A stretch of DNA of 40,609 nt from positions 1-40,609 of IMG/VR virus record IMGVR_UViG_3300006802_000202, one strand, 5' to 3'. The DNA comes from a virus. Below the pieces are notes generated by a model. The model saw only the letters and a list, made by a program, of their open reading frames with translations, made no database searches and was not told the DNA's origin. Of this stretch, positions 3,975 to 40,609 are shown piece by piece. The position numbers and the translations under genes were made by a program. Each line of letters opens with the position of its first letter. Within the stretch, counting starts at the first letter, position 1.

Positions 3975-3979
3975 TTGAT

Positions 3980-5469: not shown

Positions 5470-5485
5470 CACAGGAATATTTATT

Positions 5486-6303: not shown

Positions 6304-6316
6304 TAATAAATAATGC

Positions 6317-6384: not shown

Positions 6385-7266
6385 ATGACAACATTTTCTA
6401 CACTCAAGAAGTCCTCAGCTAATCTAGAACGCCTCACCAAGGAAATCGAAAAGATCAATTCACCGACGACCGAAAGACAGTCGGATGACCGTTTCTGGCA
6501 GCCTGAAGTCGATAAGTCTGGTAACGGTGCCGCTGTTATTCGTTTCCTGCCAGCCGCTGCGGTTGATGGTGATGATGCTCTACCATGGGTAAGAATTTTC
6601 TCTCATGGTTTCAAGGGTCCTACTGGTCTATGGTATATTGAAAACTCTCTGACTACCCTTGGTCAGAAAGACCCTGTTTCTGAATTTAACTCGAAGCTTT
6701 GGAATGAATCTTCGGACGATAATTCACCACAGAGAAAGCAGGCTCGAAATCAAAAGCGTAAGCTAAATTACATTTCAAATATTATGGTCATTTCTGATCC
6801 TAAGAATCCTGCAAATGAGGGTCGTGTTTTCCTCTATAAGTTCGGTAAGAAGATTTTTGATAAGATCACTCTTGCGATGAATCCAGAATTTGAAGGTGAT
6901 GTAGCTGTTAATCCTTTTGATTTTTGGAATGGCGCAAACTTCAAGCTACGCATCCGTCAAGTCGAGGGTTATCGAAACTATGATCAATCTTCATTTGATT
7001 CTCCTTCGGCTTTAAGTGTCGATGATGTTAAGCTTGAAGAGATTTGGAAGAAGGAGCATTCACTAAAGGAGTTTATCGATACTAAGAACTTCAAGTCTTA
7101 TGACGAACTGAAGGCTAGACTTAGTGAAGTTATTGGTAATACTGATAGAGTAAAGATTAGTGCTGTAGAAAATCAGATCGTTTCAGAATCGCGTACAAGC
7201 AACGTGGACGATAATGTTGAGGAAGATGAAGACCTTGAATATTTCAAGAAGCTGGCTGACGACTAA
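6385..7266 (+). CDS. 32: Single-stranded DNA-binding protein gp32, cysteine-free
   Basis: The protein has 293 residues (T4 gp32: 301). The basic N-terminal KKSSANLERL is the cooperative self-binding region. The core contains HGFKGPTGLWYIENSL, RKLNYISNIMVISDP, GRVFLYKFGKKIFDKI and WNGANFKLRIRQVEGYRNYD, all matching the gp32 OB-fold. The C terminus is acidic (EEDEDLEYFKKLADD) and would recruit gp59 and other replication proteins. There is no cysteine at all: where T4 has its zinc-binding CPVC, this protein has DPVS. Codon use is more GC-rich at third positions than in the late genes, fitting high expression. ATG 6385 is chosen for its ribosome site and the promoter upstream. Confidence 0.95.
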   Translation: MTTFSTLKKSSANLERLTKEIEKINSPTTERQSDDRFWQPEVDKSGNGAAVIRFLPAAAVDGDDALPWVRIFSHGFKGPTGLWYIENSLTTLGQKDPVSEFNSKLWNESSDDNSPQRKQARNQKRKLNYISNIMVISDPKNPANEGRVFLYKFGKKIFDKITLAMNPEFEGDVAVNPFDFWNGANFKLRIRQVEGYRNYDQSSFDSPSALSVDDVKLEEIWKKEHSLKEFIDTKNFKSYDELKARLSEVIGNTDRVKISAVENQIVSESRTSNVDDNVEEDEDLEYFKKLADD

Positions 7267-7304
7267 ACACTGATTGTATTTTCATATTTTATTTCCTAAA
7301 CTTT

Positions 7305-7333
7305 AGAGGTGGAGTAAAATCCACCTCTTTTTT
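7305..7333 (+). terminator. Rho-independent terminator after gene 32
   Basis: Arms AGAGGTGGA (7305-7313) and TCCACCTCT (7320-7328) form a nine-pair stem with a six-base loop, followed by T6. The T tract touches the stop codon of the minus-strand hydrolase gene, so two convergent operons meet here. On the minus strand there is no U-rich run after the stem, so it seems one-directional. Confidence 0.88.
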
Positions 7334-9704
7334 ATCCATAACCATAGGGATAATAATTGTTTGTTCCTATTGGAGTAATACTAAATGGTTCTTTAGATTG
7401 ATTTTCAGCATAATATCTCACAATAGATTGAGGTAGAGTAGGATGATCAACCTGAACCATATTGGTGGGATTAGAATTATTTACTTGTGGCGTAGTTGTA
7501 GTAGGTCTTTCTGCTTGCTGAACAGGTTTATTATTTGTAGTGGGTGTTTCAACCTCTGGTGATTGATACGGTGTCATTGATGCCATTTGATATTCTTGTT
7601 GACCAACATCGGAAGCAGCTATTCTAGGTGATCCTGGTCTTCTATTAGCAACATTAGGTTCGACTGTAACCTTTTCTCTTTTACCGTCTTCAGCAAAAGT
7701 TAAAGTTGGTCCTGTTCCATCGGAAGGTCTTGCTACATAAGGTTCACTGATATTTAAAACATTTCCGTATAGACTGGGAATAGAAGTATTTGCATCTGGA
7801 GTTTTTGGTGTCGCCGTTGATTGCGATTGTGTTTCTGCTCCAGACGCCGATGGTGCTGGCTGTTGCGATTGTGTTTCTGCTCCAGACGCCGATGGTGCTG
7901 GCTGTGAGCTAATGTTTTCTATGTTATTAGCCGATGGTGTCGTAGTTTCTGCCGGTGCTGTCTCAGTCGTTGCCGATGGTGTTGTTAGTTTGGTAATAGA
8001 TTCTTGTTTATCTCTAATGTAATCGTTTGCTAAATTGAGTCTTTGTTCTTCTGTTATATTTGGATCTAATTGTAGATGTGTGTGAGAATCGTACCATCTT
8101 TCTGTTTTAACAGGAGCTATAAATCCCGCTCTTTGTAGTTCTCCGACAACAAGGTCTCGCTCTTTTTTTGACAAATTACCAAAAGTTATATCAAAAGCAT
8201 TACCTTTACCGTGTTGTGAAGTCCTAGGATCTGACATTGGTTTTTTAGGATCAGGTTTTATTTTCCAATCTTCATACATCTGTATAATTTCGGGATCATT
8301 TGGATCTCTAAATGCTGATGTGATCTGAATTTTTTCAGCCAATTCCGGAGGAAGATTTTTGATCGCGTTTCTATATGATTGTAGAAACGCAGGATTCATT
8401 CTATCCAAACTGCTACTATAACCTCTACTCTCTGCACCTCCTGTAAGATTAATACCTAAATCTTTATATATTTCTGTTATTTTATCGGCCGACAACATTT
8501 CACCTGTTGCCCCTATAGCAGTCGCAGTTTCAGTAGCAATACCAGTAATACTTGCGGGAAATATTCTTGCAGCGGCTTCTGAAGAGTTTTCTCCACTTTC
8601 TATTGCTTTGGCATATTCAGTAAAAAGTTTACTTGCCTCTTCACTTTTAATACCTTTAGATTCGGCTTCTTTTAGAAACGCGAAATATGCTTTTTCCGAT
8701 TTTTCTTTGTTTGTTTGTTTGGCCAGAGCTACATTTTCTTCATATTTTTTCTGTTCTTCAGCAGTAACTTCGGTCATAGGTTGTTTTTGTATCATATCTT
8801 CATATAATTTATTTGCTTGTTCATTAGATAATCTTGCCCATCCACCATCCAATAAAGGTTGAAAATCTACGCCCGTAAATCCACCCGCTTCAATGGCAAT
8901 CTTAAAATCTTTATTTGTTATTTTACCTTTATCTTTATATGCATTATCAAGAGATTTCAGAAAAACTTCTTGATCAAATTTTTTTCCGCCGGCTCCGCGA
9001 AAAACTTGTGATTCACCTCTAAATTTTTCCAAAACATAAGATAGATAAGCTGCTTCATCATTTTTAAATCCGCCGGTTTTTCCTGAAGGCCCGTGAAATT
9101 TTGAATATACTTGTACTATTCCTTCCATCTTGTTATCTTTGCCGCCGCGCCGTGCAGACAAATTTTCTGGATCAATCCAAGAGTTACCAGTTTCCATTGC
9201 GCCAATACCAAATAATAACGCGGCGGCTGCTCTATTTTTTTTATCTGATAAATCTCCTAAACTACCATTCTTTATTAATCTTGCCATGGCAATATCGAAA
9301 TTTTTTCCAAATCCTGATATAGTACCGGGAGCAGTAGGTTTTTTTTCTGGATCAAAAACTATACCTAAATCTCTAAGTCTTTTTTCTGTTTCTGTAGATA
9401 ATGTTACTTTAGCCTTTGCTGCTGGTCTATCCGACACTTCGCCTCTTCCACCTCCGCCGGCGCCACCACCAGTTCCTCGACCTGTAGGAACAGGAGTTAC
9501 AGTTCCTGCTTCTCCGCCTCCAGATTTCTGAAACTCTAATTCTTTCTCTCTATAATATGATGGAAAAAGCGATGCTATTTGGCCAGGAGCTAATTGTGAT
9601 ATTAATTGAATACCAGCCGAAGTTCGGGTCAAAGCTCTTCTGTCACCAAAAGACATTGATTGAATTTTTTTATAGTCTACCGTAAGTTCTTCTGAAGTTG
9701 CCAT
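7332..9704 (-). CDS. Tail-associated peptidoglycan hydrolase, two catalytic domains
   Basis: The protein has 790 residues. After a Gly-rich linker (about 62-92), residues 128-305 look like a lysozyme/transglycosylase domain: AALLFGIGAMETGNSW, with Glu171 as likely acid, and EGIVQVYSKFHG. Residues 310-385 are helical and Lys/Glu-rich. Residues 405-565 form a peptidase M15-type (D,D- or L,D-peptidase) domain with zinc ligands His498 and Asp505 (SQHGKGNAFDI) and His543 in YDSHTHLQL, and AFR at 464-466. The end (570-790) is a Pro/Thr/Ser-rich tail with a duplicated 14-residue unit. There is no signal peptide. It is last in the minus-strand baseplate operon, so a virion hub enzyme that opens the cell wall during injection is more likely than an endolysin. 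Confidence 0.8.
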   Translation of the reverse strand: MATSEELTVDYKKIQSMSFGDRRALTRTSAGIQLISQLAPGQIASLFPSYYREKELEFQKSGGGEAGTVTPVPTGRGTGGGAGGGGRGEVSDRPAAKAKVTLSTETEKRLRDLGIVFDPEKKPTAPGTISGFGKNFDIAMARLIKNGSLGDLSDKKNRAAAALLFGIGAMETGNSWIDPENLSARRGGKDNKMEGIVQVYSKFHGPSGKTGGFKNDEAAYLSYVLEKFRGESQVFRGAGGKKFDQEVFLKSLDNAYKDKGKITNKDFKIAIEAGGFTGVDFQPLLDGGWARLSNEQANKLYEDMIQKQPMTEVTAEEQKKYEENVALAKQTNKEKSEKAYFAFLKEAESKGIKSEEASKLFTEYAKAIESGENSSEAAARIFPASITGIATETATAIGATGEMLSADKITEIYKDLGINLTGGAESRGYSSSLDRMNPAFLQSYRNAIKNLPPELAEKIQITSAFRDPNDPEIIQMYEDWKIKPDPKKPMSDPRTSQHGKGNAFDITFGNLSKKERDLVVGELQRAGFIAPVKTERWYDSHTHLQLDPNITEEQRLNLANDYIRDKQESITKLTTPSATTETAPAETTTPSANNIENISSQPAPSASGAETQSQQPAPSASGAETQSQSTATPKTPDANTSIPSLYGNVLNISEPYVARPSDGTGPTLTFAEDGKREKVTVEPNVANRRPGSPRIAASDVGQQEYQMASMTPYQSPEVETPTTNNKPVQQAERPTTTTPQVNNSNPTNMVQVDHPTLPQSIVRYYAENQSKEPFSITPIGTNNYYPYGYG
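7821..7904 (-). repeat. 42-bp perfect tandem duplication inside the hydrolase gene
   Basis: Copies 7821-7862 and 7863-7904 are identical. In protein they give two copies of a 14-residue Gln/Pro/Ala/Ser unit (QPAPSASGAETQSQ) in the low-complexity tail. Perfect identity implies a recent slip or continuing copy-number change. Confidence 0.92.
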
Positions 9705-9913
9705 TATCGTCTATTTTGCTGTCTTCTTTGCATGGACTTTTCGTCTCGTATTCTTTCGTTCTCTTTCTTGATGTGTTCCTTGAGAAGGTCAATATAAAGA
9801 TGCCTTTCCCAGGGAATCATACCTTCAAGATCACTCAAAGTATATTTATGAAACTGCATCAAATTGAAATTGGTTTTATAGAAATTCATCAAGTTATCAT
9901 AACCGAACATCAT
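9704..9913 (-). CDS. Short baseplate-hub/tail assembly protein after gp26 (possible frameshift partner)
   Basis: A 69-residue protein with a conserved-looking centre, YTLSDLEGMIPWERHLYIDLL, then a highly charged helix rich in Lys, Glu, Arg and Gln. The layout (DLxxMxPWER) is typical of short proteins that follow the gp26 homologue in T4-like phages, where T4 has gene 51, a hub assembly catalyst; T4 gp51 is much longer, so I leave the name open. Its ATG overlaps the gp26 stop, and it lies in the -1 frame directly after the slippery run U UUU UUA. It may therefore be made alone, or as an extension of gp26, or both. Confidence 0.6.
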   Translation of the reverse strand: MMFGYDNLMNFYKTNFNLMQFHKYTLSDLEGMIPWERHLYIDLLKEHIKKENERIRDEKSMQRRQQNRR

Positions 9914-10629
9914 AAAAAAAAAGAGTCGATGTTCTTATACTTTATCTTGTGATGAAAATTGCACTTCTCACATATCCTTTCACCTTCAATTTGAAAGTAA
10001 GGAAAGTTATCTACCCATTCTTCTAGCATATCGAATTGTGCGCGGGTCAAGTTCTCAATGAATGTTTTAAATTCTTCTTCATCTATATCTTTATTGGAAT
10101 GTATGGTATCACCATTCATTATATAATCTACTGAACTATAAATAAGTCTCATTTTTTTATCTAATAGATTTTCGTTCAATTCAATCGCCTTCACATCCGA
10201 ATAGCGAGGATATTTCATCTTAACGCTTACATTTGGACCGAGTTCTATTATATCAGAAAGCTCTTTTGGTTTTGATATAGAAGAGTTGGATATGTCAAGT
10301 GTTACAGGAAAGATATGACCACATTTCTCGCCTTCGACATAATTATTACAAGAGAAGTTTATATCGACAGTTTCATTAATAGATTTTGCTCTCAATGCTG
10401 CAAAAAGATAATCTATATCAAAAAAAGGTAAATCATCTATTACAATACTATCTTGCACACAACTCTTGATAATTTCTTTTGTAACATTTATAATTTCAAA
10501 ATTATCTTTTGATTGAGCCGCCATCAAAAGAATCTTTTCTTCTTTTACCAAAAACGGTCTAATCTTTATTTTTAATCCACTAGAAGGCAACTTGACTTCA
10601 TAAATGGGAGTTTCTAGCTTAGGTAACAT
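9910..10629 (-). CDS. 26: gp26-like baseplate hub assembly protein
   Basis: The 239-residue protein fits the T4 gp26 family (208 residues in T4): an N-terminal LPxLxTPxYEVKLPSxG opening, a helical middle (FDIDYLFAALRAKSINE), and KMKYPRYSDV. Cys94, Cys103 and His105, and Cys220 with Cys223 near the C terminus, form a likely zinc site. gp26 is needed to build the central hub with gp51, gp28 and gp29. A GGAG ribosome site precedes its ATG. The last codons read Ser-Phe-Phe-Leu-stop on a run of nine T, the slippery sequence described separately. Confidence 0.85.
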   Translation of the reverse strand: MLPKLETPIYEVKLPSSGLKIKIRPFLVKEEKILLMAAQSKDNFEIINVTKEIIKSCVQDSIVIDDLPFFDIDYLFAALRAKSINETVDINFSCNNYVEGEKCGHIFPVTLDISNSSISKPKELSDIIELGPNVSVKMKYPRYSDVKAIELNENLLDKKMRLIYSSVDYIMNGDTIHSNKDIDEEEFKTFIENLTRAQFDMLEEWVDNFPYFQIEGERICEKCNFHHKIKYKNIDSFFL

Positions 10630-21968: not shown

Positions 21969-24325
21969 TGTCAAGTAATAATAGAATTTCAAATTTTGTA
22001 AATTCTCAAGTTCCTTTCTTTGTTAGAAATGATCATAGAACTTTTGTGTCTTTTCTTGAAGCTTATTATGAATATCTAGAGCAATCTGAACCCATATTAA
22101 AAGATGGTAAAGCCGTAGAAAGATCAAGAAACCTTTTAGATTATTTTGATATCGATAGAACACTGGACGATTTTACTGGAAAACTGTATAGTACATTTTT
22201 AAATGAATTTCCGGATACCGCACTTGTCGATAAAAAATTAATCTTGAAACATGCCAAAGATTTATATCGAGCAAAAGGCACAGAAAAGTCCATAAGATTT
22301 CTATTAAGAGCATTGTTTGGTAAAGAGATAGAGATTTACTATCCTAAAAAAGATATATTAAGAGCTTCGGATGGTAAATGGTATATACAAAGAACACTAA
22401 GGCTCGAAGACATAAGAATAGATAATACTTCTAATACATCGCTAGTTGCACTAGAAAAATTTATAGGAAGAGAAGTAAAAGGAAGAACTTCTAATGCTCT
22501 TTCTATTATAGAAAGGGCCGATAGGTTCTTTGAAGGCGGAACTCAAATCGATGAGCTAACAATTTCTTCCATTAGAGGATCATATGACAGCGGCGAAACA
22601 ATAATAACCACGTTTACTGAAAATGGATTGACCAAAAATGTCAGTGCCAATATTGTAGGTGAGGTGATTTCATCGATAGTAGTTAATAATCCAGGTTCAG
22701 GTTATATAACGGGAACTGTTGTTCCCGTTATCAGTAATACAGGTTCAGGTGCAATTGTAACCATTGGACAAGTATCGTCTGGTAGAATAAATTCTATTTC
22801 AGTCACTGAAGGTGGAGCCGGATATCAAATAGGTAACGATATTCTAATTACAGGTGGTGGTACAGGTGCAGGTGCTGCGGCCAATGTAAGTCTTGTGTTA
22901 GATGATAGTAGTGTGCATCCAAATTCTTATAATATTGTCATAAGTTTAATTTCAGCCGAAGCGAATACAGTTATAGGAAATACAACATATTCAAATTTAA
23001 ATTCATTAGTTATTGATCCTGCCAATAACTGGATACAAAACACTGTACAAACATTTGTCTATGGTAATACAGGTCCTGCAAGGGCTATTTTAGTATCAAA
23101 TCCTGGTGCAGGATATTCAGAAGTTCCAAGTTTCAGTGTTGTCGCCAACACTAGAATTGCCGAATTAGGTATATTAGGTCGTTTAGAAATTAATAATGGT
23201 GGAGAAGGGTATTTAATTGATGATGAAATACATTTCACTAACGTATTTGGTGGGTATGGCACAGGAGCTTTAGCTAAAGTTTCAAATGTAGGTACAAGCA
23301 ATACTATAACAGAAGTAGAATTTGTAGAAATGCCGGGGCATCTGGTTGGAGGATCCGGATACGATAAAGATTATCTTCCTATCGCAACGGTCGTTTCGTC
23401 TAATGGTAATGCTACAGGCGCAAATGTTTCTGTAGTTTGTCTATTAGGAGATGGCGCAAGTTTCTTCTCGGCCAACTCTACATTAGGAGCCATTAGAAAT
23501 TTCACAATAATAAACAGAGGTCGAGGATATACTCCCGGCGAACCTACATTAAATCTTAGTGCTTTCGGTGATGGCACGGCGCAAGCCTCCATAACCGTTG
23601 CGGAAGGACTTTTCACTTATGAAGGACGATATCTAAATGATGACGGGTTCTTAAGTTCGTCGAATTATTTGGAAGACAGAGATTATTATCAGAATTATTC
23701 TTATGTGATTAGAATCAAAGAATCTTTAAATAATTATAAAAAAGTAGTTAGAGAATTATTTAATCCATCTGGAATGAATTTCTTTGGCGAATATCTCTAT
23801 CAGAATATCGACGAAGAATATGATGCACCAGCAGATGCAGAAGATGTATTGAAAAATAAAATAACTGTTCAAACTTATACCAAGACTGCCAATCTGATCA
23901 ATGTAACATATATTTCTCATAATTTATCAACAGGAAATAACGTGACGCTCGAATTCGCTTCTGGTGGATATTCGAATGTTAAGAACGGAATATATAATGT
24001 GGTTTCGACCACAACAGACACATTTAATGTTAAGTTAGAACCACAAATTTCTGCGATAACTATTAATGATGCTGGTGCATTATATAACTCAAATAGTTTC
24101 TTAATATTTACTGGCGGCGGAGGATCAGGCGCTAACGCTAAATACACCACAAATGCAAATGGTTCAATTATTTCTGTTGTGATAAACGATTTCGGCAGAG
24201 GATACACTAGTGAACCAACTGTCACTGCGAATGGATCAAATTCAACTCCTGCTACATTTAATGTAACACTACTTTACGCAAATAACACATCCGGTTCAGT
24301 AAATGTTGGTAAAATTTTGATATAA
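21968..24325 (+). CDS. 7: gp7-like baseplate wedge protein with many Gly-Tyr beta units
   Basis: The protein has 785 residues (T4 gp7: 1032). The N-terminal FVRNDHRTFVSFLEAYYEYLEQ and LYRAKGTEKSIRFLLRALFG match wedge proteins that follow gp6 in marine T4-like phages and are distantly like P2 gpI. The rest is made largely of Gly-rich units such as VNNPGSGYITG, TEGGAGYQIGND, VSNPGAGYSEVP, NNGGEGYLIDDE, INRGRGYTPGEP and INDFGRGYTSEP, at about 230-310, 375-550 and 695-770. Between them is a conserved part with YYQNYSYVIRIKESLNNYKKV. gp7 joins gp6 and gp10 in the wedge. The beta units may carry surface loops. Confidence 0.85.
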   Translation: MSSNNRISNFVNSQVPFFVRNDHRTFVSFLEAYYEYLEQSEPILKDGKAVERSRNLLDYFDIDRTLDDFTGKLYSTFLNEFPDTALVDKKLILKHAKDLYRAKGTEKSIRFLLRALFGKEIEIYYPKKDILRASDGKWYIQRTLRLEDIRIDNTSNTSLVALEKFIGREVKGRTSNALSIIERADRFFEGGTQIDELTISSIRGSYDSGETIITTFTENGLTKNVSANIVGEVISSIVVNNPGSGYITGTVVPVISNTGSGAIVTIGQVSSGRINSISVTEGGAGYQIGNDILITGGGTGAGAAANVSLVLDDSSVHPNSYNIVISLISAEANTVIGNTTYSNLNSLVIDPANNWIQNTVQTFVYGNTGPARAILVSNPGAGYSEVPSFSVVANTRIAELGILGRLEINNGGEGYLIDDEIHFTNVFGGYGTGALAKVSNVGTSNTITEVEFVEMPGHLVGGSGYDKDYLPIATVVSSNGNATGANVSVVCLLGDGASFFSANSTLGAIRNFTIINRGRGYTPGEPTLNLSAFGDGTAQASITVAEGLFTYEGRYLNDDGFLSSSNYLEDRDYYQNYSYVIRIKESLNNYKKVVRELFNPSGMNFFGEYLYQNIDEEYDAPADAEDVLKNKITVQTYTKTANLINVTYISHNLSTGNNVTLEFASGGYSNVKNGIYNVVSTTTDTFNVKLEPQISAITINDAGALYNSNSFLIFTGGGGSGANAKYTTNANGSIISVVINDFGRGYTSEPTVTANGSNSTPATFNVTLLYANNTSGSVNVGKILI

Positions 24326-24328
24326 ATA
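24321..24328 (+). promoter_or_regulatory. T4-type late promoter before gp8
   Basis: Exact TATAAATA that begins inside the last codons of gp7 and ends 27 bases before the gp8 ATG. A second start for the outer wedge genes gp8 and the giant DUF4815-type gene. Confidence 0.8.
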
Positions 24329-31794: not shown

Positions 31795-32853
31795 ATGGCA
31801 TTCTCTAACGTTTCATTAAATGATACATTTGCTACTTGGTTGACAAGAACAAACCAATTAGTCATAGCATATAATAGTTTGGAAGCAAATAATGCTCTAG
31901 GCGCATCGGGGACCGCCAATGCAGGAATAATACAAGCCAATACTGCAAGAGTACACGCCAACTCTTCATATGATCAAGCTAATTCTGTTTATAGTTATTC
32001 TAACACAATCTATTTACATGCTAATTCCTCATATGATCAGGCGAACACGGTATATGACTATTCCAACACAATTTATTTACACGCCAACTCTTCATATGAT
32101 CAAGCCAATTCTTCATACATCCATGCTAATTCATCCTTTGAAAAAGCCAACGATGCTAATTCCTATGCTTTTGCTGGCATAGTCCAAGCGAATACTGCTA
32201 GAGACCATGCTAATGTGGCCTTCGGACAAGCTAACTCGACTAATCTATATGCATTTGCCGGCATAGTCCAAGCGAATACTGCTAGAGTACATGCCAACGC
32301 CGCATTTGATAAAGCCAATGCGGCTTTCGCGAATGCTACTGGTGTATTTTCCGGAACCATAATATTGAGTTCTAACGGAACTTCAACTGCACCTGTAATA
32401 ACACATCTGGCCAATACGACAACTGGTATGTATTTTCCTTCACAAAATACTATGGCTTTTTCTACTGCCAGTAATACTGTAGTTTATATGTCGCCGACAG
32501 GTAACGTTGGAATATCAACAACAAATACATCATATAAATTATTCGTGGCAGGTGATATATACGCTACTGGTGATCTTGTTGCATATTCAGACCTGGCAAT
32601 AAAGAAAGATATATTCACTATCGAAAACGCACTAGATATAGTAAAAAATCTGCGCGGCGTAAGATATGTAAGAAGAGACACAGAACAGAAAAGAATAGGT
32701 CTAGTTGCACAAGAAGTGCAAGAAATTTTACCGGAAGTAGTTTTGTCGTCAGAAAACAACATAGGTGTAAATTATCCAGCTATTGTCTCGGTATTAATCG
32801 AAGCAATCAAAGAACTTAAACTAAAAGTGGATAAACTAGAAAGAGATAATTAA
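31795..32853 (+). CDS. Tail fibre with heptad stalk and S74 self-cleaving chaperone end
   Basis: The protein has 352 residues. Residues 48-182 are heptads of the form A-N-x-A-(F/Y/R)-x-x, a likely trimeric coiled-coil stalk. Residues 185-260 are a beta link (TGMYFPSQNTMAFSTASN). Residues 265-352 match the peptidase S74 intramolecular chaperone: the cleavage dyad Ser265-Asp266 in YSDLAIKKDI, NLRGVRYVRR, RIGLVAQEVQEILPEVV, VNYPAIVSVLIEAIKEL and a final helix. In this family the chaperone helps three chains fold and then cuts itself off before the Ser. The visible receptor-binding part is short, so this could be a connector fibre. Confidence 0.88.
   Translation: MAFSNVSLNDTFATWLTRTNQLVIAYNSLEANNALGASGTANAGIIQANTARVHANSSYDQANSVYSYSNTIYLHANSSYDQANTVYDYSNTIYLHANSSYDQANSSYIHANSSFEKANDANSYAFAGIVQANTARDHANVAFGQANSTNLYAFAGIVQANTARVHANAAFDKANAAFANATGVFSGTIILSSNGTSTAPVITHLANTTTGMYFPSQNTMAFSTASNTVVYMSPTGNVGISTTNTSYKLFVAGDIYATGDLVAYSDLAIKKDIFTIENALDIVKNLRGVRYVRRDTEQKRIGLVAQEVQEILPEVVLSSENNIGVNYPAIVSVLIEAIKELKLKVDKLERDN
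31936..32340 (+). repeat. Ala/Asn heptad repeat region of the first fibre gene
   Basis: About 19 units of seven codons. Within it, a 21-residue block (ANSSYDQ, AN(S/T)VY(S/D)Y, SNTIYLH) appears twice in a row, followed by a partial third copy. The DNA copies differ mostly at third positions, so the protein pattern is kept while codons drift. Confidence 0.85.
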
Positions 32854-32855: not shown

Positions 32856-34418
32856 ATGTCTCTACCAGAATCTGGCGAATTGAAATTTAGTACAATAAGA
32901 GAAGAATTCCTTTATAAAGGTAATACTCCGGTCTATATACATGTAACAGATCCTACGCCCGCATTCAATAGTGGTTTACAAGGTATCAGAGTTGCTGGGG
33001 ATTACAATAATGATATTACTTATTTCGATGGCGCTTCTGTTGTTGCTTATGATAATAATCGAACAGATTTTACAAACTTTAGTGCGAGTTCTGATAATTA
33101 TAGTTATAGATGGTTAGGATATTTTAAACCAAACGCAACAGGAACTTGGGCATTCACATTAATAGATACCGACGATCATGCCCATATATGGATAGGAGAT
33201 GAAGCTGTTACAGACTATTCTCTACTTAACGCTGTTGCTAATAATTATGTTTATGTTTCTGGAGCAGAGCGAACTGGCATAGTTTCAGTAACGGAAGGAT
33301 ATTATTATCCAATCAGAATTTATTTTGGAGAAGGAATTGGTTCCGATAGAATACAACTAAGAATATCTGGTCCTGGACAATTAACAGAAACCGGTAACGC
33401 ATCGGGTTATTTTTTTGGTAGCGGTCAATTCGGCACACTATCGACGGCCAATGCTTTAGAAACTAAATTCAGTGATTATTATCGAGGCGGATTATATGTT
33501 AATAGTGATCAAACCGGTATACCTACCGGCGGCGAAAATAAACTCTCAAATTTTCGTGGAGCATTTGAAACGGCTAGTGTTTCCGATATTGTAGCAGAAT
33601 TGTCAGGAAACGATTCTAGTTATTCTGTTAGAAATTATCTATGCAGTAAAAGTTCGGTCGCGTCTGGCAAAGAAACTTCTACGAGTCGAGGCGACACTCA
33701 AATAACAAGTGGATTGGCATCAACATATAGAACAGCCACTTCTGTTTCAGGAACACTATCTTTTTCCGAAAGTTCTTCCGATTCGAATGGTTTAAGATAT
33801 GGACAGAGAACAAAATGGGTTACAATCGCCGCAATAAATGTAGGACAATCTGTAGGTAATCCTTCCTGTAGTATTAATGGTACTGCACAAACCGCGTCTC
33901 AAGTTTATTCCAATACTTTAGTTTCAGCCGCTGTAGTATCTGGTGCACCATATGTTTATAATTTTTCATTGTTTAGAAAAGAAATAGATTTTAACGATAT
34001 TAGCTCAATACAAACTACTTTTCCAAAAGTTAACGACGACTCGGACAATAGACAGGAGGTATATGTTATACCTGGTAAATGGAGAGTAAATGGTTCTCAA
34101 TTTACAACATTTTCTTCTTCCGGCAGCACAGCAACAATAACACAATCTGTAAATCAAAATGATCTAATCTTTGCCTTTATGTCTAGAGAAACTAATGGCT
34201 ACGTTAGTGATGGAGATTATGGAACCATAGGCGGTTCAGCCAGAGAGGTTTTATATATGGATAGAACAACATATCGAAACAGTTTAGCAAGTAGATTGAA
34301 AGTTTTTATAGCTGCAAATAATGGTACAATATCACACACTACCGGCCAAGAGTCATATGACATTGATACCGCCGCATATAGGCCGAAACATATGATCCGA
34401 TTAGTTTATGATAGTTAA
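32856..34418 (+). CDS. Adhesin-like fibre protein with PA14/GLEYA-type domain
   Basis: The protein has 520 residues. The opening MSLPESGELKFSTIREEF and later GGENKLSNFRGAF are phage fibre-attachment patterns. Residues 25-180 look like a PA14/GLEYA sugar-binding domain: GIRVAGDYNND, YSYRWLGYFKPNATGTWAF, DTDDHAHIWIGDEA with the calcium-type Asp pair, and YYYPIRIYFGEG. The last 300 residues are Ser/Thr-rich beta sequence of unknown fold. Recognition of a host glycan is likely from the domain type. It lies three bases after the S74 fibre gene. Confidence 0.8.
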   Translation: MSLPESGELKFSTIREEFLYKGNTPVYIHVTDPTPAFNSGLQGIRVAGDYNNDITYFDGASVVAYDNNRTDFTNFSASSDNYSYRWLGYFKPNATGTWAFTLIDTDDHAHIWIGDEAVTDYSLLNAVANNYVYVSGAERTGIVSVTEGYYYPIRIYFGEGIGSDRIQLRISGPGQLTETGNASGYFFGSGQFGTLSTANALETKFSDYYRGGLYVNSDQTGIPTGGENKLSNFRGAFETASVSDIVAELSGNDSSYSVRNYLCSKSSVASGKETSTSRGDTQITSGLASTYRTATSVSGTLSFSESSSDSNGLRYGQRTKWVTIAAINVGQSVGNPSCSINGTAQTASQVYSNTLVSAAVVSGAPYVYNFSLFRKEIDFNDISSIQTTFPKVNDDSDNRQEVYVIPGKWRVNGSQFTTFSSSGSTATITQSVNQNDLIFAFMSRETNGYVSDGDYGTIGGSAREVLYMDRTTYRNSLASRLKVFIAANNGTISHTTGQESYDIDTAAYRPKHMIRLVYDS

Positions 34419-34429: not shown

Positions 34430-34804
34430 ATGTCATCGAGAAAATGTGTAGTAGAAGGTATAGAAGTTCTAGGTGAATATAACGATCTTAAGTTCACTGC
34501 CGTTTATTTTGAAAATGAAACCGGAATAAATGAACCTGTGGCAGAGGTTACACATATTATAAATGCTTGTTATATTTCTGATGATGGTTGGTTATATTCC
34601 GACGACAATATGTTTGAAGAGAAAGAAATAAAAGAAGTAATAAAAAACCATAAGAATGAATATTGGACAGAAGAGATTATAGAAAAACTTAAAATAAAAA
34701 TAGAAAAAGAATTTATCGAGAAAAATATCAAATTTAATTCAAACGAAAATGAAACAATAAGTTTAGAAGAAATACAAGGAATACTAGATAATATAGGCTA
34801 TTAA
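34430..34804 (+). CDS. Unknown acidic protein opening the accessory cassette
   Basis: A 124-residue protein. The first half is beta (KCVVEGIEVLGEYNDLKFTA), the second is a highly charged helical part (KIKIEKEFIEKNIKFNSNEN). It does not look like a fibre. It lies three bases before an oxygenase-like gene and is the first of six genes in the same direction with very low GC. No family recognised. Confidence 0.6.
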   Translation: MSSRKCVVEGIEVLGEYNDLKFTAVYFENETGINEPVAEVTHIINACYISDDGWLYSDDNMFEEKEIKEVIKNHKNEYWTEEIIEKLKIKIEKEFIEKNIKFNSNENETISLEEIQGILDNIGY

Positions 34805-34806
34805 TA

Positions 34807-35340
34807 ATGTTAATGAAATGTGATCCTAATCCGGAAGTTATAAAACATCTATCTCATATCATAAGAGAATGCTTCGCACAGTGGAAAAACCTTCCAAAAG
34901 GTAATTGTACAGAAATAGATTTCAATAAACAACCTTTGCCTGGCGAATCAGATGTGGACAGTGGATCTTTTTTAAACAATTATCCTACTATACATTTAAA
35001 TCCATTCAAAAGAAAAGAGAAGTTTGAAAGATTAACAGAGTTTTTAAAAATTAACGATCCTTTAATTAAGGATTATCAGCATAGTAATGCTATTGTGTAT
35101 GCTCCAATGACCTGTATGAGATGGCACACAAATTCCAGTTTTGTAGGGTTAAGAACGTACTATACCTTTACAAATGGTAAAGGAATTTTTAGATATATCG
35201 ATGAAAATGGAAATGTTATAGACGATCATGATAATAAAGGATGGACCGTTAGAAAATTCCAAGTGACCAGAAATCCAGGCTTTTGGCATACGGTCTGGAC
35301 GGAGCAAACAAGATTTTCTTTCGGCTTTATGAGTCAATAA
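34807..35340 (+). CDS. 2OG-Fe(II) oxygenase-like protein with HxN in place of HxD
   Basis: The protein has 177 residues. The C-terminal half has the order expected of a double-stranded beta-helix oxygenase: MRWHTNSSFVGLRTYYTF, GIFRYIDENGNVI, WTVRKFQV, FWHTVWTEQTRFSFGFM. Candidate metal ligands are His107 and His161 and the 2-oxoglutarate-binding Arg169. The usual acidic ligand is Asn109 (HTN). I recall related phage proteins with the same HTN, so it is probably a family trait. It may be a modified hydroxylase or a catalytically dead protein. Two close ATG codons (34807, 34813) are possible starts. Confidence 0.6.
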   Translation: MLMKCDPNPEVIKHLSHIIRECFAQWKNLPKGNCTEIDFNKQPLPGESDVDSGSFLNNYPTIHLNPFKRKEKFERLTEFLKINDPLIKDYQHSNAIVYAPMTCMRWHTNSSFVGLRTYYTFTNGKGIFRYIDENGNVIDDHDNKGWTVRKFQVTRNPGFWHTVWTEQTRFSFGFMSQ

Positions 35341-35341
35341 A

Positions 35342-36337
35342 ATGCAAGATTTAAGAATATATGACCAATGGGTTTCTTGGGCAAAAGCCAGATATAATAC
35401 ACCCGAAAAATTAAAAAATTTACCATATCTTATTAAATTTAACGAAAGTTTAAAGAAGATATCCGTTAAACACGATATTTATTTCCTTTTCTGTGATGTT
35501 ATAAAAGCCAAGTTTTTATCAAACACATTACTTTATAGGGGCGGTAGTCCTAATTATAGACTTTTTAAAATTTCTCCAGGAGGCGAATATATACTCAATA
35601 ACCCTAGATATCATTTGTGGAAAAATTGCGATATCGACAGTAATATTTTAAATTTATGGAATAGTTTTCCAAATAATAGATACGAACAGTCGAAAAAAAC
35701 GATAGAATTGCCTAAAAGCTATGATCTTTTTTGCCTACAGCTAACAGGCAAAATTTTCGATTCGACCAATTTGCCTCCAGGAAAAATGGATTTACCTTCC
35801 GACGATCCTAGATGGAATAGTAAATATCTAGATAGAATTATGCCTAGAGACGAATGGGCGACGAGAGACGCCATTAAGTATGCCACCGAAAACAAAAGAT
35901 ATACTATCTTTAAATCACATCCTGTAACATCACAACCAAATGTTAATTGTTGGAAAGATTTTCAAAAAGAAGGTATAATAAATGAATACACTATATTTGT
36001 CGATAGAGACGGATGTAATATTGATTATTTGGTGGATAACGCGGATTTAGTGTATTCGGCCGATAGTGCGGTGAGCCTAAATGCGATGTTGAAAGGTAAA
36101 AGAGTAGCAACATATTATAATACAGATTTATCCGAAGTAATACCTCAAATATTTGATTCGGGAGAATTGAAAACAGTAAGACCTGTACCAGAAGAAGACG
36201 TTAAAAGATTTCTCACTTGGTATTATTACAAATTGAGTTTTGATATTGAAAGCGCAAATTATGAAGAGAAAATAGAAAATTTTGTTATGAATTTTAAAAA
36301 AGGTCAAAGAGCAAAAGAGCTATTTTCGTGCGTCTAA
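35342..36337 (+). CDS. Capsule-type glycosyltransferase-like protein, copy A
   Basis: The protein has 331 residues and is a tandem paralogue of the next gene. It contains LLYRGGSPNYRLFKISPGG, RYHLWKN, then RDAIKYA (175-181), YTIFKSHPVT (188-197), and ADLVYSADSAVSLNAMLKGK (234-253). The order ‘helix, (F/V)KxHP, then a Ser-x-x-Ala/Leu-xx-G-K-x-V motif’ is that of capsule polysaccharide synthesis enzymes (KpsS/Caps_synth type, GT-B fold), where the last motif binds the sugar nucleotide. No membrane segment. The substrate is unknown. The fold assignment is from motif order only. Confidence 0.55.
   Translation: MQDLRIYDQWVSWAKARYNTPEKLKNLPYLIKFNESLKKISVKHDIYFLFCDVIKAKFLSNTLLYRGGSPNYRLFKISPGGEYILNNPRYHLWKNCDIDSNILNLWNSFPNNRYEQSKKTIELPKSYDLFCLQLTGKIFDSTNLPPGKMDLPSDDPRWNSKYLDRIMPRDEWATRDAIKYATENKRYTIFKSHPVTSQPNVNCWKDFQKEGIINEYTIFVDRDGCNIDYLVDNADLVYSADSAVSLNAMLKGKRVATYYNTDLSEVIPQIFDSGELKTVRPVPEEDVKRFLTWYYYKLSFDIESANYEEKIENFVMNFKKGQRAKELFSCV
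35840..35913 (+). repeat. Segment shared with the paralogous gene at 36928-37001
   Basis: Seventy of 74 bases match the copy in the next gene, and all four differences are silent third-position changes (35860, 35872, 35884 and 35908 by alignment). The two proteins are much less alike elsewhere, so this patch stands out. Confidence 0.9.
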
Positions 36338-37410
36338 TATTCAAAGAATCGTCTAGATTTCCATCCTTAAAAGAAAATTATAAATTTCTTGAAGATGCAT
36401 TAAAAAGAGATGAAGGTACTTTAAGACAATCAAAAATAAAAAATCTGATACATATCAAAAGATTTCATGAATTATTGGAACCTATATTAAAAAAATATAA
36501 TGTTCCGGTTTTGATGGCAGATGTTAATAAACAAAAAAATTTAAATAATATTTTATTTTATAGAGGCGGCAGTCCAGTATATAGTTTGTTCACACTTACT
36601 CCTGGAGGACAATATATTAATTATAATCCTTTCTACCATTTATGGAAAAATCATAAAATAGATTATGACATAGTTGAGAAAATACAACACTATGACATGA
36701 ATCGCTACGCACAACCTAAAATCGAAATAAAATTGCCCGAGAAATACGATTTATTTCCTTTAAATTTATCAAACCATTTATATGGTTTCAGTGAACATCC
36801 TTCACAAATTAATATCAACAAAAATGATCATAGATATTATTTTAACAGAGAATTATCTATGATAGGTCGTTCCAGGGTGGAACGTTCTATGAATAAAACT
36901 AATAGACTATTTGAAAAGAAATATGTAATGCCTAGAGACGAATGGGCTACGAGAGACGCTATTAAGTATGCTACCGAAAACAAAAGATATACTATATTTA
37001 AGAAATCTCATGTGGTAACTCCAAATTATATAAAAAAATGGTCAGATTTCGAAAAAGAGGGCATTATCAATGAATTCACAATATATACTGATGCAAATAT
37101 GGACTATTTAATACAAAACTCTAATTTTGTATATAGCTCGGATAGTATGTCTTCTTTTCAGGCACTAGTAATGGAAAAACCTACCGCGACTTATTATAAC
37201 ACAATTATATCTGAAATAATTCCTGTCATTAAAACAGCTAAAGAGATGGAAAATATTGGCAAAATAAAAAAAGAAATTAAATTGAGATTCCTTTCCTGGT
37301 TTTATCACAAACTTTCTATAGATATATATTCTCAAGACGCCGAAGAAAAAATTGAAAATATTGTTAAAAGATTTAAAAATGGCGAAAGAACAAAGGAAAT
37401 ATTTTCATGA
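36328..37410 (+). CDS. Capsule-type glycosyltransferase-like protein, copy B
   Basis: The protein has 360 residues. It starts with GTG, ten bases inside the end of copy A, so expression is likely coupled. It keeps all landmarks of copy A: LFYRGGSPVYSLFTLTPGG, YHLWKNHKID, the identical RDAIKYATENKRYTIFK block (209-225), and SNFVYSSDSMSSFQALVMEK (265-284). It has a longer middle (about 155-200) with several His, Arg and Asn residues. The HP after the Lys of copy A is KKSHVV here. The pair could transfer different sugars or form a heterodimer. Function is inferred from motif order only. Confidence 0.55.
   Translation: MRLIFKESSRFPSLKENYKFLEDALKRDEGTLRQSKIKNLIHIKRFHELLEPILKKYNVPVLMADVNKQKNLNNILFYRGGSPVYSLFTLTPGGQYINYNPFYHLWKNHKIDYDIVEKIQHYDMNRYAQPKIEIKLPEKYDLFPLNLSNHLYGFSEHPSQININKNDHRYYFNRELSMIGRSRVERSMNKTNRLFEKKYVMPRDEWATRDAIKYATENKRYTIFKKSHVVTPNYIKKWSDFEKEGIINEFTIYTDANMDYLIQNSNFVYSSDSMSSFQALVMEKPTATYYNTIISEIIPVIKTAKEMENIGKIKKEIKLRFLSWFYHKLSIDIYSQDAEEKIENIVKRFKNGERTKEIFS
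36928..37001 (+). repeat. Segment shared with the paralogous gene at 35840-35913
   Basis: The partner copy of the 74-base patch described above, encoding an identical run of 24 residues in both proteins. Either recent gene conversion or unusually strict constraint on this part of the active site. Confidence 0.9.
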
Positions 37411-37970
37411 AGATAGAAACATATCCTTGGGAACACCTTATAATCGATAATTTTTACGATGAACAACTTTTCGCCAATATGAAAAAAGAAATGTCAGAAT
37501 TTATTAGAGAAAAGAAAAATAATTACACACACGATATAAGAAAACAGAAAAGATTTCTTATTATGGATACGGATATAAATTTTCCTAAAATTTTACCAGA
37601 AACATATAAGTGTTTAATTAGTAGACCAGTTGACGCATCTTATCTAGATTTTTTTAGTAAAGTTAGGGACTACATTTCTATAAAAGCCGAGAGCGAAATT
37701 AACGTCTGTTTAGATGATCTAGATTATCCTATACACGACGAAAACATAAAAAAAATATTATCTTGTGTCGTATATGTAATGCCAGAAGAATCGAGAGGAA
37801 CCATTCTATATGATAAGGATAAAAATTTTGTAAAAGAATTAGAATGGAAACCTAACACCATGTTTATTTTTCCAGGACTAGAAGGAATAACTTGGCATAG
37901 TTATAAATGCATTCCTGGAAGTTATCGCATAACAATCAATACATTTCTAAAAGACTTAAACAGAAGATAA
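37407..37970 (+). CDS. 2OG-Fe(II) oxygenase (hydroxylase-type)
   Basis: The protein has 187 residues. It starts ETYPWEHLIIDNFYDEQLF, the normal opening of phage prolyl-hydroxylase-like oxygenases. The core is YPIHDENIKKILSCVVYV, GTILYDKD, LEWKPNTMFIFPG, ITWHSYKC and SYRITINTFL. Fe ligands would be His110, Glu112 (HxE form of the HxD/E motif) and His164, with Arg174 for 2-oxoglutarate. It would hydroxylate a protein or small molecule, or act on a sugar; the target is unknown. It overlaps copy B by four bases (ATGA). Confidence 0.8.
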   Translation: MKIETYPWEHLIIDNFYDEQLFANMKKEMSEFIREKKNNYTHDIRKQKRFLIMDTDINFPKILPETYKCLISRPVDASYLDFFSKVRDYISIKAESEINVCLDDLDYPIHDENIKKILSCVVYVMPEESRGTILYDKDKNFVKELEWKPNTMFIFPGLEGITWHSYKCIPGSYRITINTFLKDLNRR

Positions 37971-37975
37971 ATTAT

Positions 37976-38719
37976 ATGCAGTATATGAAGCAACTAAACA
38001 ACGTTTTCATTAGAGTTCCTAAAACAGGTAGCGAAGCTCTAGCCAAATTTTTTATAGATAATGTTTTAGAATCGGGAGATAAATCTACAATATTATTAGA
38101 GAGAGAAATTATTAAACCTAAACATAAATGGCAAGAGTATTCCATTCAATTTAAAATTGAAGGTAATAACTATCATAAAAGTCATATGACTGCACAATAT
38201 GCCATAGACAATAATTTAGTGCCCATGGATGCAAAATTTATAGCTACTATAAGGGACCCTATCGAAAAACAATTAAGTTTATATCTGTCAAACTCTAGAT
38301 TAAAAAGTGTTAAAAACACGAATAAAAAAGTAAGACTTAAGCCCTCGTTATTTAATGGATCAATAGAAACTTTCAGAGAAGAGATCGAAAAAGGTTTTAT
38401 AGAAATAGAAATAAGACCCCATCAAAACCAGTTTCAATACGAATTTTTGAAATATAAGGATGCTTACATTGGAACATGGTGGTGCTATGACTATATTTCA
38501 AGTCATATAGAAGAGTTTATAAAAACATACGATATTCAAGTTAAAGTTCCGTTGCAAAAAATAAATCAATCTATTAGAACAAGAAAATCTAAAGAGTTTA
38601 TAGATGTATATTATACTCCCGAGTTGAAGAAAATAGTATCGGAATATCACAAAAAAGACTTGGAATTATATAATACAGTAAGAGACCATTGGCAAACAAA
38701 AGGATATTCTATTATATAA
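37976..38719 (+). CDS. Sulfotransferase-like protein (Sulfotransfer_2 type)
   Basis: With ATG 37976 as start, the protein has 247 residues. NNVFIRVPKTGSEALAKFF holds the PAPS 5'-phosphosulfate loop (PKTGS, 15-19). KSHMTAQYA (His70) fits the HxTA motif with the catalytic His of the heparan/carbohydrate sulfotransferase group. KFIATIRDPIEKQLSLYLS gives the 3'-phosphate site (Arg94, Ser101). Members move sulfate from PAPS to sugar hydroxyls. An upstream in-frame ATG overlaps the oxygenase gene and lies before the conserved start. It is the last gene of the cassette; a late promoter follows. Confidence 0.75.
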   Translation: MQYMKQLNNVFIRVPKTGSEALAKFFIDNVLESGDKSTILLEREIIKPKHKWQEYSIQFKIEGNNYHKSHMTAQYAIDNNLVPMDAKFIATIRDPIEKQLSLYLSNSRLKSVKNTNKKVRLKPSLFNGSIETFREEIEKGFIEIEIRPHQNQFQYEFLKYKDAYIGTWWCYDYISSHIEEFIKTYDIQVKVPLQKINQSIRTRKSKEFIDVYYTPELKKIVSEYHKKDLELYNTVRDHWQTKGYSII

Positions 38720-38722
38720 ATA
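38715..38722 (+). promoter_or_regulatory. T4-type late promoter of the second fibre locus
   Basis: Exact TATAAATA overlapping the sulfotransferase stop, 26 bases before the next ATG, which has AGGAG. The distance is almost the same as at gp48 and gp8. Confidence 0.8.
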
Positions 38723-38747: not shown

Positions 38748-39083
38748 ATGGCGTCCTACGTAGAACTATATATGGATCAAGGCGCAACCTTCAATAACAT
38801 TATTTATCTCAACGATGATAGTACAAACGCCAATGTGAACCTTACGGGTTATATCGTAAGAAGTCAGATGCGTCGGTCATATTATTCCTCCAATGTGTCG
38901 GCCAATATTATTTGTACAATCACAAACGAAGCCAACGGCGAAATAACAATGTCTCTGCCAGCAGCAAACACAAGTAACATAAAAGCCGGTAGATATCTGT
39001 TTGATCTTGAAACAGTAACAAATGGAACAGTGGTTAGAGTATTAGAAGGCACAATTACAGTAACACCGGGTGTAACTCGCTAA
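38748..39083 (+). CDS. Small virion protein linked to fibre genes
   Basis: A 111-residue protein: ELYMDQGATFNNIIYLNDDS, VNLTGYIVRSQMRRSYYSS, then NGEITMSLPAANTSNIKAGR and VVRVLEGTITVTPGVTR. This is an Ig-like beta sandwich that I recognise from many T4-like marine phages, always next to fibre genes; its role is probably structural or in fibre attachment. Its stop overlaps the ATG of the following fibre gene by one base. Confidence 0.8.
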   Translation: MASYVELYMDQGATFNNIIYLNDDSTNANVNLTGYIVRSQMRRSYYSSNVSANIICTITNEANGEITMSLPAANTSNIKAGRYLFDLETVTNGTVVRVLEGTITVTPGVTR

Positions 39084-40609
39084 TGTCAACAAAAGTAACA
39101 GTTAATACTTCCGGAAGCAACAGGGTTTCTGTTAATAAGCAAAATAGAGACACAATAAGAACTGTTGGTGTTGACTATACAGGTACAGCCAATTCTGTTG
39201 CTTCTGCTTTGGAAATCGCTCAACTGGCTTTTGATACTTCTAATGCAGCCTTAAATTCTATTACATCAGCATATGATCAATCTAATACTTCATTCAATCA
39301 ATCAAATATAGCTTTTAGTCAAGCCAACTCTGCATATGATAAAGCCAATGCTGCCAACTCATATGCATATGCAGGCATAATCCAGGCTAATACCGCTAGA
39401 GACCATGCCAATACTGCCTTTGCTAACGCCAACCTGGCTCTAGTTGTAGCCGAATCCGCTTTCTCTAAAGCTAACGATGCCAATTCCTATGCATATGCTG
39501 GTATAGTTCAAGCCAATACTGCAAGGGACCACGCTAATATAGCATTCGGTCAGGCCAATGCGGCCAATTCTTATGCCTTCGCCGGAATAGTTCAAGCTAA
39601 TACAGCTAGGGATCACGCTAACACAGCTTTTGGTAATGCTAATCTGGCTCTAGTTGTAGCAGAATCTGCTTTTGTCAAGGCTAATGCTGCAAATCTATAC
39701 GCATATGCCAGTATAGTACAAGCCAATACGGCTAGAGACCATGCTAATGTATCATATAATCAAGCCAATACTGCTTTCGACAAAGGCAATTCGGCCTATG
39801 ATTTGGCTGTATCAGGAATAGTACAAGCAAACACCGGTCGAGATCATGCCAACACGGCATTCGGTCAGGCTAACGGAGCTTTTGATCAAGCGAATTTGGT
39901 GTATGATTATGCCAATACAAAATTCTCAAGCAATGGTGGTATAATATCTGGAAACGTAACAATTAGAGGCAACCTTATTGTTACAGGCAATACAACAGTT
40001 ATTAGTGCAAATAATTTAACTATAGATGATCCTTTTATTCTTCTGGCTAATAATAATACCGGCGATATTTTTGATATTGGTATTGCAGCACATTACGCAA
40101 ATAATACGGATGAAATTGTACATACCGGCATTTTTAGAAGCTCGGCAACTAAAGAGTGGTATCTTTTCAAAAATTATAATGAACACTTCTTTTATGAAGA
40201 TGGCAGAAATATTGATATAAACGCCAACAATTTTACTCTCGATACATTAAATGCGAACTTCATAACAAGCAATTTAAATCTTGGTGGAATAAACGCAATA
40301 AATTGGATCACATCTTCATATTCACAAGCAAACACTAGTCGAGATCACGCCAATACTGCCTTCGCCAATGCTAATCTAGCACTAGTAGTAGCAGAATCTG
40401 CTTTTGTCAAGGCCAATGCTGCTAATTCATATGCATATGCCGGTATAGTCCAAGCTAACACCGCAAGAGATCACGCTAATACCGCCTTTGCCAACGCTAA
40501 CCTAACATTAATAGTAGCCGAATCGGCTTTTGGTAAAGCCAATGCTGCTAATTCCTATGCGTTTGCTGGTATAGTACAAGCCAATACAGCCAGAGATCAT
40601 GCAAATACC
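39083..40609 (+). CDS. Long heptad-repeat tail fibre protein (3' truncated by window)
   Basis: The frame is open from ATG 39083 to the window edge (509 residues visible). After about 45 residues it has heptads such as ANTARDH, ANTAFGN, ANLALVV, AESAFVK, built into a larger 42-residue unit. At about 283-410 a beta domain interrupts the stalk: GNVTIRGNLIVTGNTTVIS, DDPFILLANNN, and FRSSATKEWYLFKNYNEHFF, a module found in fibres of marine phages. Then the heptads resume and run off the end. The receptor-binding tip is outside the window. It is probably the main long fibre or a part of it. Confidence 0.88.
   Translation, partial: MSTKVTVNTSGSNRVSVNKQNRDTIRTVGVDYTGTANSVASALEIAQLAFDTSNAALNSITSAYDQSNTSFNQSNIAFSQANSAYDKANAANSYAYAGIIQANTARDHANTAFANANLALVVAESAFSKANDANSYAYAGIVQANTARDHANIAFGQANAANSYAFAGIVQANTARDHANTAFGNANLALVVAESAFVKANAANLYAYASIVQANTARDHANVSYNQANTAFDKGNSAYDLAVSGIVQANTGRDHANTAFGQANGAFDQANLVYDYANTKFSSNGGIISGNVTIRGNLIVTGNTTVISANNLTIDDPFILLANNNTGDIFDIGIAAHYANNTDEIVHTGIFRSSATKEWYLFKNYNEHFFYEDGRNIDINANNFTLDTLNANFITSNLNLGGINAINWITSSYSQANTSRDHANTAFANANLALVVAESAFVKANAANSYAYAGIVQANTARDHANTAFANANLTLIVAESAFGKANAANSYAFAGIVQANTARDHANT
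39218..39928 (+). repeat. Heptad repeat region, first block
   Basis: About 34 seven-residue units. Six heptads form a 42-residue (126-base) higher-order unit: ANAANSY, AYAGIVQ, ANTARDH, ANTAF(A/G)N, ANLALVV, AESAFVK. The first fibre gene at 31.9-32.3 kb uses the same heptads in another order. Confidence 0.88.
40321..40609 (+). repeat. Heptad repeat region, second block (continues past the window)
   Basis: The same 42-residue unit (ANTARDH, ANTAFAN, ANLALVV, AESAF, AANSYAYAGIVQ) restarts after the beta domain and repeats at least twice before the edge. Confidence 0.85.

Follow-up and report, generated by a model that had tools for sequence, protein, structure and literature searches.

We analysed a 40,609-bp virus record, IMGVR_UViG_3300006802_000202 of IMG/VR (the window, labelled G000, from a virus of bacteria), and found at 34430-38719 a cassette of six abutting plus-strand genes, with a PA14/GLEYA fibre gene on its upstream side and a second fibre locus on its downstream side. 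The gene products are, in order, a small protein (g1), an oxygenase-like protein (oxA), two glycosyltransferases (GT1 and GT2), a second oxygenase-like protein (oxB) and a sulfotransferase (ST). Because the order oxA-GT-oxB recurs in other contigs, the cassette is, as judged by gene order, a conserved module and not a chance collection. The preliminary description of this DNA had suggested a dedicated modification pathway, which is supported, as are the co-occurrence of the genes, the enzyme classes and the linkage to fibres. We consider modification of a fibre or fibre-associated virion protein, late and in the cytoplasm, the most likely role of the cassette, at about even odds.

Single-protein scans missed the relatives of the cassette, which came to light in five other contigs when IMG/VR was scanned with alignments. 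A survey of related phages for co-occurrence had been named as a check, and each of these five contigs has all or most of the block, with gene order and strand preserved. IMGVR_UViG_3300025889_000609 (G001) has a fibre gene, a gene for a 203-amino-acid (aa) protein, g1, oxA, three GTs, oxB, a sulfotransferase-like gene, ST, an FkbM methyltransferase, another ST, a radical SAM-SPASM gene and gp13, beyond which terminase, sheath, tube and portal genes follow. In 3300043119_000538 (L018) the order is fibre module, g1, oxA, GT, oxB, ST, radical SAM-SPASM and fibre-assembly gene, and in 3300016476_000688 (L024) it is Gly-rich adhesin, 89-aa protein, oxA, GT, oxB, ST and GT8. The contig 3300020048_002324 (L023/L031) has a Gly-rich adhesin, a DUF4376 protein, GT, ST and GT8, with GT-ST as the only part of the cassette enzymes present. 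The last contig, 3300017951_001044 (L028), carries a partial oxA, GT, oxB, two more GTs, gp13 and terminase, and no ST. The oxA-GT-oxB order is thus kept in five contigs including the window (with G001, L018, L024 and L028), and ST comes after it in all of these except L028. The GTs of these diverged copies, in the same order and on the same strand, are 26-62% identical. Wherever the sequence is present, the upstream neighbour of the cassette is a fibre or adhesin gene, and the neck gene gp13 and the terminase gene follow the block in G001 and L028. All cassette loci are metagenomic fragments, and pattern-based scans miss distant relatives. DNA and protein searches of 50,697 phage records gave no match for the block, GT1, GT2, ST or the GT and ST of L024, and tblastn found no isolated phage with the GT and ST pair among approximately 50,700 records. 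No cellular relatives of GT and oxA were confirmed in cellular genome contigs.

These data also bear on the idea that unlinked morons, for example 2-oxoglutarate (2OG) oxygenases for nitrogen or 2-oxoglutarate metabolism, have gathered at a recombination hot spot by the fibres. Cyanophages have many 2OG oxygenases at scattered places, for which roles in DNA repair or in 2-oxoglutarate/nitrogen metabolism were proposed (PMC3037559, PMC9146016). Pelagibacter phage HTVC008M likewise has several 2OG-Fe(II) oxygenases in a row between fibres and gp13, in the same T4-like position. HTVC008M has four of them, on the opposite strand and with neither a GT nor a sulfotransferase; they fall in phrog_61 and phrog_81, and the oxA and oxB profiles did not match them. 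The gene order retained in five contigs despite the divergence of the GTs argues against a gathering of unlinked genes, which we regard as improbable.

The open reading frames (ORFs) of the cassette, all on the plus strand, are at 34430-34804, 34807-35340, 35342-36337, 36328-37410, 37407-37970 and 37907-38719, and bear out the earlier account of six packed or overlapping genes in one direction between two fibre loci, with one start correction. Neighbouring genes are at most 2 nt apart and overlap by at most 10 nt, except for a 64-nt overlap between oxB and ST. Alignments with the ST relatives start at the ATG at 37976, so this is probably the real start of ST, and the overlap an artefact of mechanical ORF calling. 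The motifs that had been noted were also present, namely HTN...H...R in oxA, HDE...H...R in oxB, motifs of the 3'-phosphoadenosine-5'-phosphosulfate (PAPS) type in ST, and a paralogous pair of transferases (48% aa identity between GT1 and GT2). No membrane segment was detected in the cassette enzymes (maximum 19-aa hydropathy 1.24), the window proteins had no NCBIfam match, and Pfam/PHROG-type annotation of this contig, which is a fragment, gave no nucleotide- or base-modifying partner genes, as would go with a DNA hypermodification pathway, in the cassette or among its fibre neighbours. The GC content of the cassette is 0.27-0.34 as compared to 0.37-0.40 in the flanking genes. Third codon positions do not show this difference (GC3 0.19-0.28 in the cassette and 0.21-0.36 in the flanking genes), so there is no compositional sign of recent foreign origin. 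A recent acquisition, considered from the low GC, was rejected, as the GC3 of the cassette resembles that of the fibre genes.

Both oxygenase-like folds had been proposed from motifs. The assignment of oxB (37407-37970, plus strand, 187 aa) as a 2OG-Fe(II)-oxygenase-like protein is borne out by its motif, H110-D-E112...H164...R174-I-T, which fits the pattern HxD/E...H...RxT/S, and by homology to a protein of Synechococcus phage S-SCSM2R that is annotated as a 2OG-Fe(II) oxygenase (29% identity over 94%, E 3e-10). The four cassette members aligned all have HxE...H...RxT. The Pfam profile PF13640 gave an E-value of 0.038, below the cut-off. oxB also matches phrog_274 (E 6e-6), and the PHROG label of this family, DNA endonuclease V, was rejected for oxB, as annotated 2OG oxygenases match phrog_274 too. 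From these matches, phrog_274 (window 37407-37970; contig L014 28562-29095) likely covers 2OG-Fe(II) oxygenases of marine phages under a wrong label.

For oxA (34807-35340, plus strand, 177 aa) the fold was found by structure prediction. The AlphaFold2 model (predicted local distance difference test, pLDDT, 83; predicted template modelling score, pTM, 0.82) has the double-stranded beta-helix of 2OG oxygenases and prolyl hydroxylases. Foldseek matched the model to the prolyl-4-hydroxylase (P4H) of P. putida (E 2.6e-5), and in VIA-align the collagen prolyl hydroxylase of PBCV-1 (vCPH) came first (Z 11.1). PHD2 and AlkB-type oxygenases are other solved structures close to oxA, with Z of about 10-11 for PHD2, P4H and AlkB. 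The motif residues are H107-T-N109...H161...R169, in which Asn takes the position of the carboxylate in the His-X-Asp/Glu...His metal triad. The other aligned members have HTN, HSN or HNN, with contig L021 (HDD) as the exception. R169, eight residues past H161, corresponds to the Arg/Lys that follows the distal His for 2OG and is invariant in the seven aligned members. Because the canonical carboxylate is absent, the term oxygenase applies to oxA at the level of the predicted fold only. A collagen-type prolyl hydroxylase system was rejected, as the nearby fibres are proline-poor (0.2-3.6%). Relatives of oxA also occur at fibres in other phages. In contig L020 oxA follows a tail-chaperone-like gene. 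Contig L021 has the order fibre, oxA, sulfotransferase-like gene and fibre; this stretch (3911-10541), with its canonical HDD and a sulfotransferase-like ORF (PRSGTSS), comes from an otherwise different phage.

GT1 (35342-36337, plus strand, 331 aa) is predicted to be a GT-B capsule-type glycosyltransferase, and GT2 (36328-37410, plus strand, 360 aa) is its paralogue. The capsule-type assignment in the preliminary description was upheld in part. The best Foldseek matches of the GT model were the retaining transferases of beta-3-deoxy-D-manno-oct-2-ulosonic acid (Kdo), KpsC, WbbB and KrkA (GT107, GT99 and GT140), with KpsC at the top (E 8.8e-5, model pLDDT 65), and six of eight family members match the Pfam family Capsule_synth (PF05159) at E-values up to 1 (best 5e-7), the window GT1 reaching 14.4 bits against a curated cut-off of 20. 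In VIA-align, with matches in the C-terminal domain, other GT-B enzymes and UDP-N-acetylglucosamine 2-epimerases outranked KpsC, a ranking of the model that we take as a shared GT-B fold only. None of the 11 GT members has, at the equivalent place, the QXXXD nucleophile motif of the retaining beta-Kdo transferases (PMC10148158, PMC12887879), and unlike KpsC, WbbB and KrkA the GTs have no membrane anchor and stand in a phage fibre context. A standard beta-Kdo transferase system was rejected on the absence of QXXXD. The HP nucleotide-binding motif, which GT1 shares with these enzymes (about 35918-35923), is present in the first GT of every cassette and lost in the window GT2 (FKKSHVV), in GTb and GTc of G001 and in the second GT of L028. 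This pattern suggests a catalytic GT with a partner GT. Since the window GT2 pairs with GTb of G001 in the GT tree (support 99/99), the duplication is placed by the tree before these phages. One tract of 74 nt around PRDEWATRDAIKYATENKRYTIFK, at 35840-35913 in GT1 and 36928-37001 in GT2 (both plus strand), is 95% identical between the paralogues, which are 59% identical overall, and none of 10,000 codon permutations reached this value. Gene conversion later than the duplication is the probable origin of the tract.

ST (37976-38719, plus strand, 247 aa) resembles PAPS sulfotransferases of the Sulfotransfer_2/heparan sulfate 2-O-sulfotransferase (HS2ST) kind. The PAPS-binding pattern described earlier was confirmed by a 5'-phosphosulfate-binding-like motif (VPKTGS) and a 3'-phosphate-binding-like motif (IRDPxExxLSxYL), as found in Sulfotransfer_2, and by family matches. 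Pfam Sulfotransfer_2 (PF03567) matched five of six ST members (best E 6e-6), the window protein itself not being among those listed; the window ST matched phrog_3347, Gal-3-O-sulfotransferase (E 5e-4), and an HS2ST profile (E 0.0026), the latter match spanning the two PAPS motifs as well as a conserved His. This His is found in five of six members, and HMMER aligns it to the HxH of HS2ST, where it has a catalytic role. In contrast to HS2ST, the phage ST family is about 210-300 aa long, phage-encoded and without a membrane anchor. Another phage sulfotransferase island was seen in contig L030 (1987-10720), with several sulfotransferase-like paralogues in a row and an oxB relative; this contig also ends in a gp25-like gene.

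The window is assigned to a T4-like (Kyanoviridae-like) phage by protein matches: T4-like PHROGs are hit by its gp6, gp8, ssb, baseplate and tail proteins, and gp6 is 39% identical to gp6 of Kyanoviridae such as BUCT-ZZ01 and HTVC008M. The gene upstream of the cassette (32856-34418, plus strand) encodes a 520-aa fibre or adhesin with a GLEYA/PA14 domain at aa 70-176 (Pfam GLEYA 6e-17, PA14 2e-11) and a C-terminal module at about aa 241-520 (33576-34418). Among 13 loci examined, hidden Markov model matches to this module were found only in the cassette-adjacent fibres of the window, G001 and L018, and tblastn gave no match in the 50,697 phage records. The second fibre locus starts with an L-shaped-tail-fibre-assembly-like gene (38748-39083, plus strand; phrog_3304 E 7e-21, phrog_1084 E 3e-25), a homologue of which also comes after the cassette in L018, and continues with an A/N-repeat fibre. 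Fibres with short Ala-Asn repeats (QANTARDHANTAFAN-like) stand on both sides of the cassette, at 31795-32853 and 39083-40609. The Asn/Ser/Thr richness of the fibres is no evidence of modification.

A T4-type late-promoter-like sequence, TATAAATA, at 24321-24328 (plus strand) lies ahead of gp8 (24355) and is the likely start of a late unit of fibres and cassette. The next one, at 38715-38722 (plus strand), overlaps the 3' end of ST and precedes the fibre-assembly gene. Apart from a site at 25494, inside gp8, there is no plus-strand TATAAATA between 24321 and 38715, so fibres and cassette probably share one late transcription unit. Sites just before gene starts are at 12327, 19451, 24321 and 38715, i.e. 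four of seven plus-strand sites are 15-45 nt ahead of a gene start (P 5e-5 for random placement). The total count of TATAAATA, 8 against 7.4 expected, was rejected as a sign of promoters, and only the placement is significant. Elsewhere in the window, three tRNA genes (Lys TTT, Ile TAT, Arg TCT) at 203-893 flank a gene labelled recombination directionality factor (phrog_478), and a 790-aa protein without Pfam or PHROG match (7332-9704, minus strand) adjoins the baseplate hub gene.

The first cassette gene, g1 (34430-34804, plus strand, 124 aa), belongs to no known family and has no match in the phage database of 50,697 records. G001 (E 2e-25) and L018 (E 1e-5) each have a homologue at the corresponding position. 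Beyond the original observation, we found that the protein just upstream of the enzymes has a motif, [DE][DE]Ixx[IL][IL], near its C terminus in all five testable loci (window, G001, L018, L024 and L023/L031), the upstream sequence of L028 being missing. In g1 it is at 34760-34801 (plus strand; SLEEIQGILDNIGY), and the other carriers, directly upstream of the enzyme genes, are at L012 7519-7965, L018 7690-8004, L024 7842-8111 and L031 4769-5491. They are of three unrelated kinds, g1 (three loci), an 89-aa protein and a DUF4376 protein. A regex search of 827 ORFs gave one other match; the regex was composed after inspection of the five loci, and these counts are descriptive. A plausible role of the motif is that of a docking helix for the enzymes. 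It could also be an enzyme recognition site, if the enzymes modified g1 and its stand-ins themselves, as virion proteins or released effectors, in the manner of radical-SAM/SPASM peptide-maturation cassettes. The constant position of the motif on the immediately upstream gene fits such a scheme, as does the radical-SAM/SPASM gene in G001 and L018, but the three unrelated carrier families (one with DUF4376) have no common modifiable core, and the motif was picked after the fact from loci that do not include L028. We find this explanation hard to favour.

Modification of a fibre or fibre-associated protein is preferred because the enzymes have no membrane segment, the genes probably lie in a late unit, a protein-hydroxylase-like fold is predicted and the fibre neighbourhood is recurrent. 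The shared upstream C-terminal motif and the C-terminal module that was found only in cassette-adjacent fibres were also counted in its favour. Soluble phage enzymes would act late, in the cytoplasm, on a fibre, an adhesin or a fibre-associated protein soon after its synthesis. oxA and/or oxB would hydroxylate side chains, and GT1/GT2 would add a sugar, perhaps onto the new hydroxyl, with GT1 having the intact donor motif and GT2 perhaps being a partner subunit. The Sulfotransfer_2 enzyme would then sulfate the added sugar, and in relatives the radical-SAM/SPASM enzyme, FkbM methyltransferase and GT8 may bring variety. g1 or its stand-ins would serve the fibre as chaperone or adaptor, and may recruit the enzymes through the C-terminal helix. 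We infer the enzyme activities, the reaction order, the donor, the acceptor and the role of g1 from the genes. The complete chain, in which receptor-binding fibres or a chaperone are hydroxylated, glycosylated by a catalytic/partner capsule-type pair and sulfated, with the C-terminal helix on unrelated carriers recruiting the enzymes, is tentative and on balance doubtful.

Several points weigh against fibre modification. The metal triad of oxA has Asn in place of the carboxylate, the GT structural model is of only moderate quality (pLDDT 65), and the oxA relatives in L019 and L011 and two paralogues in phage C48C1 are not at fibres. The upstream Gly-rich adhesins of L024 and L023 are not homologous to the window fibre, so no single fibre domain is an obligate substrate. 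Fibre loci are also recombination hot spots, and the adjacency could be partly passive.

A change of the host surface is the main rival, which we consider unlikely. Here late sulfation and extension of a host polysaccharide or lipopolysaccharide (LPS) precursor would keep progeny and debris from re-adsorbing, or would exclude superinfecting phage. The GTs are nearest to capsule Kdo transferases, the sulfotransferase is of carbohydrate type, relatives have GT8 and FkbM genes, and LPS gene clusters have been reported in cyanophages (PMC3037559). However, none of the genes in the block encodes a membrane protein, a flippase or a lipid carrier, such a role would not call for two or more protein-hydroxylase-like genes, and the late fibre-unit position together with the shared motif on fibre-neighbour proteins better fits a protein target.

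The earlier statement that no described phage system has this combination holds for the full combination as far as searched, but parts of it have precedents in HTVC008M, metaviromic islands, phage C48C1 and mycobacteriophages. In C48C1 (OQ984149.1, CDS0202-0204) three genes, namely a small one, one for a GT and one for an oxA-family protein (E 1.6e-17), sit between a structural gene and a fibre-assembly gene, directly before the latter. Unlike in the window, this GT has no capsule-type profile match, and no oxB or ST match was found in the stretches searched. In marine metaviromic islands with fibres, Fe(II)-oxygenases are among the commonest identifiable genes and were assigned to host recognition, whereas no pathway of GT and sulfotransferase is described in the parts of that account considered here (PMC3909814). 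Phage-encoded virion glycosylation is described for mycobacteriophages Che8, Corndog and Myrna (Freeman et al. 2023, cited in PMC12363180 and PMC12619734), and according to these citing papers one or more phage-encoded GTs are likewise proposed for virion proteins. There, as these papers relate it, the GT was shown experimentally to act on capsid and tail-tube proteins, whereas the capsule-type GT pair, oxygenases and sulfotransferase beside the fibres of the window are predicted from their genes.

Marine phages often carry 2OG oxygenases and sulfotransferases, whose role there is unsettled, the function of phage sulfotransferases being described as unclear (PMC10580990). The conserved cassette ties both to a glycosyltransferase and to fibres, and so suggests for them a specific role that experiments can address, namely to modify the adhesion apparatus after translation. 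If this is true, the specificity of the fibres would be set by chemistry as well as by sequence, which bears on the prediction of host range from genomes.

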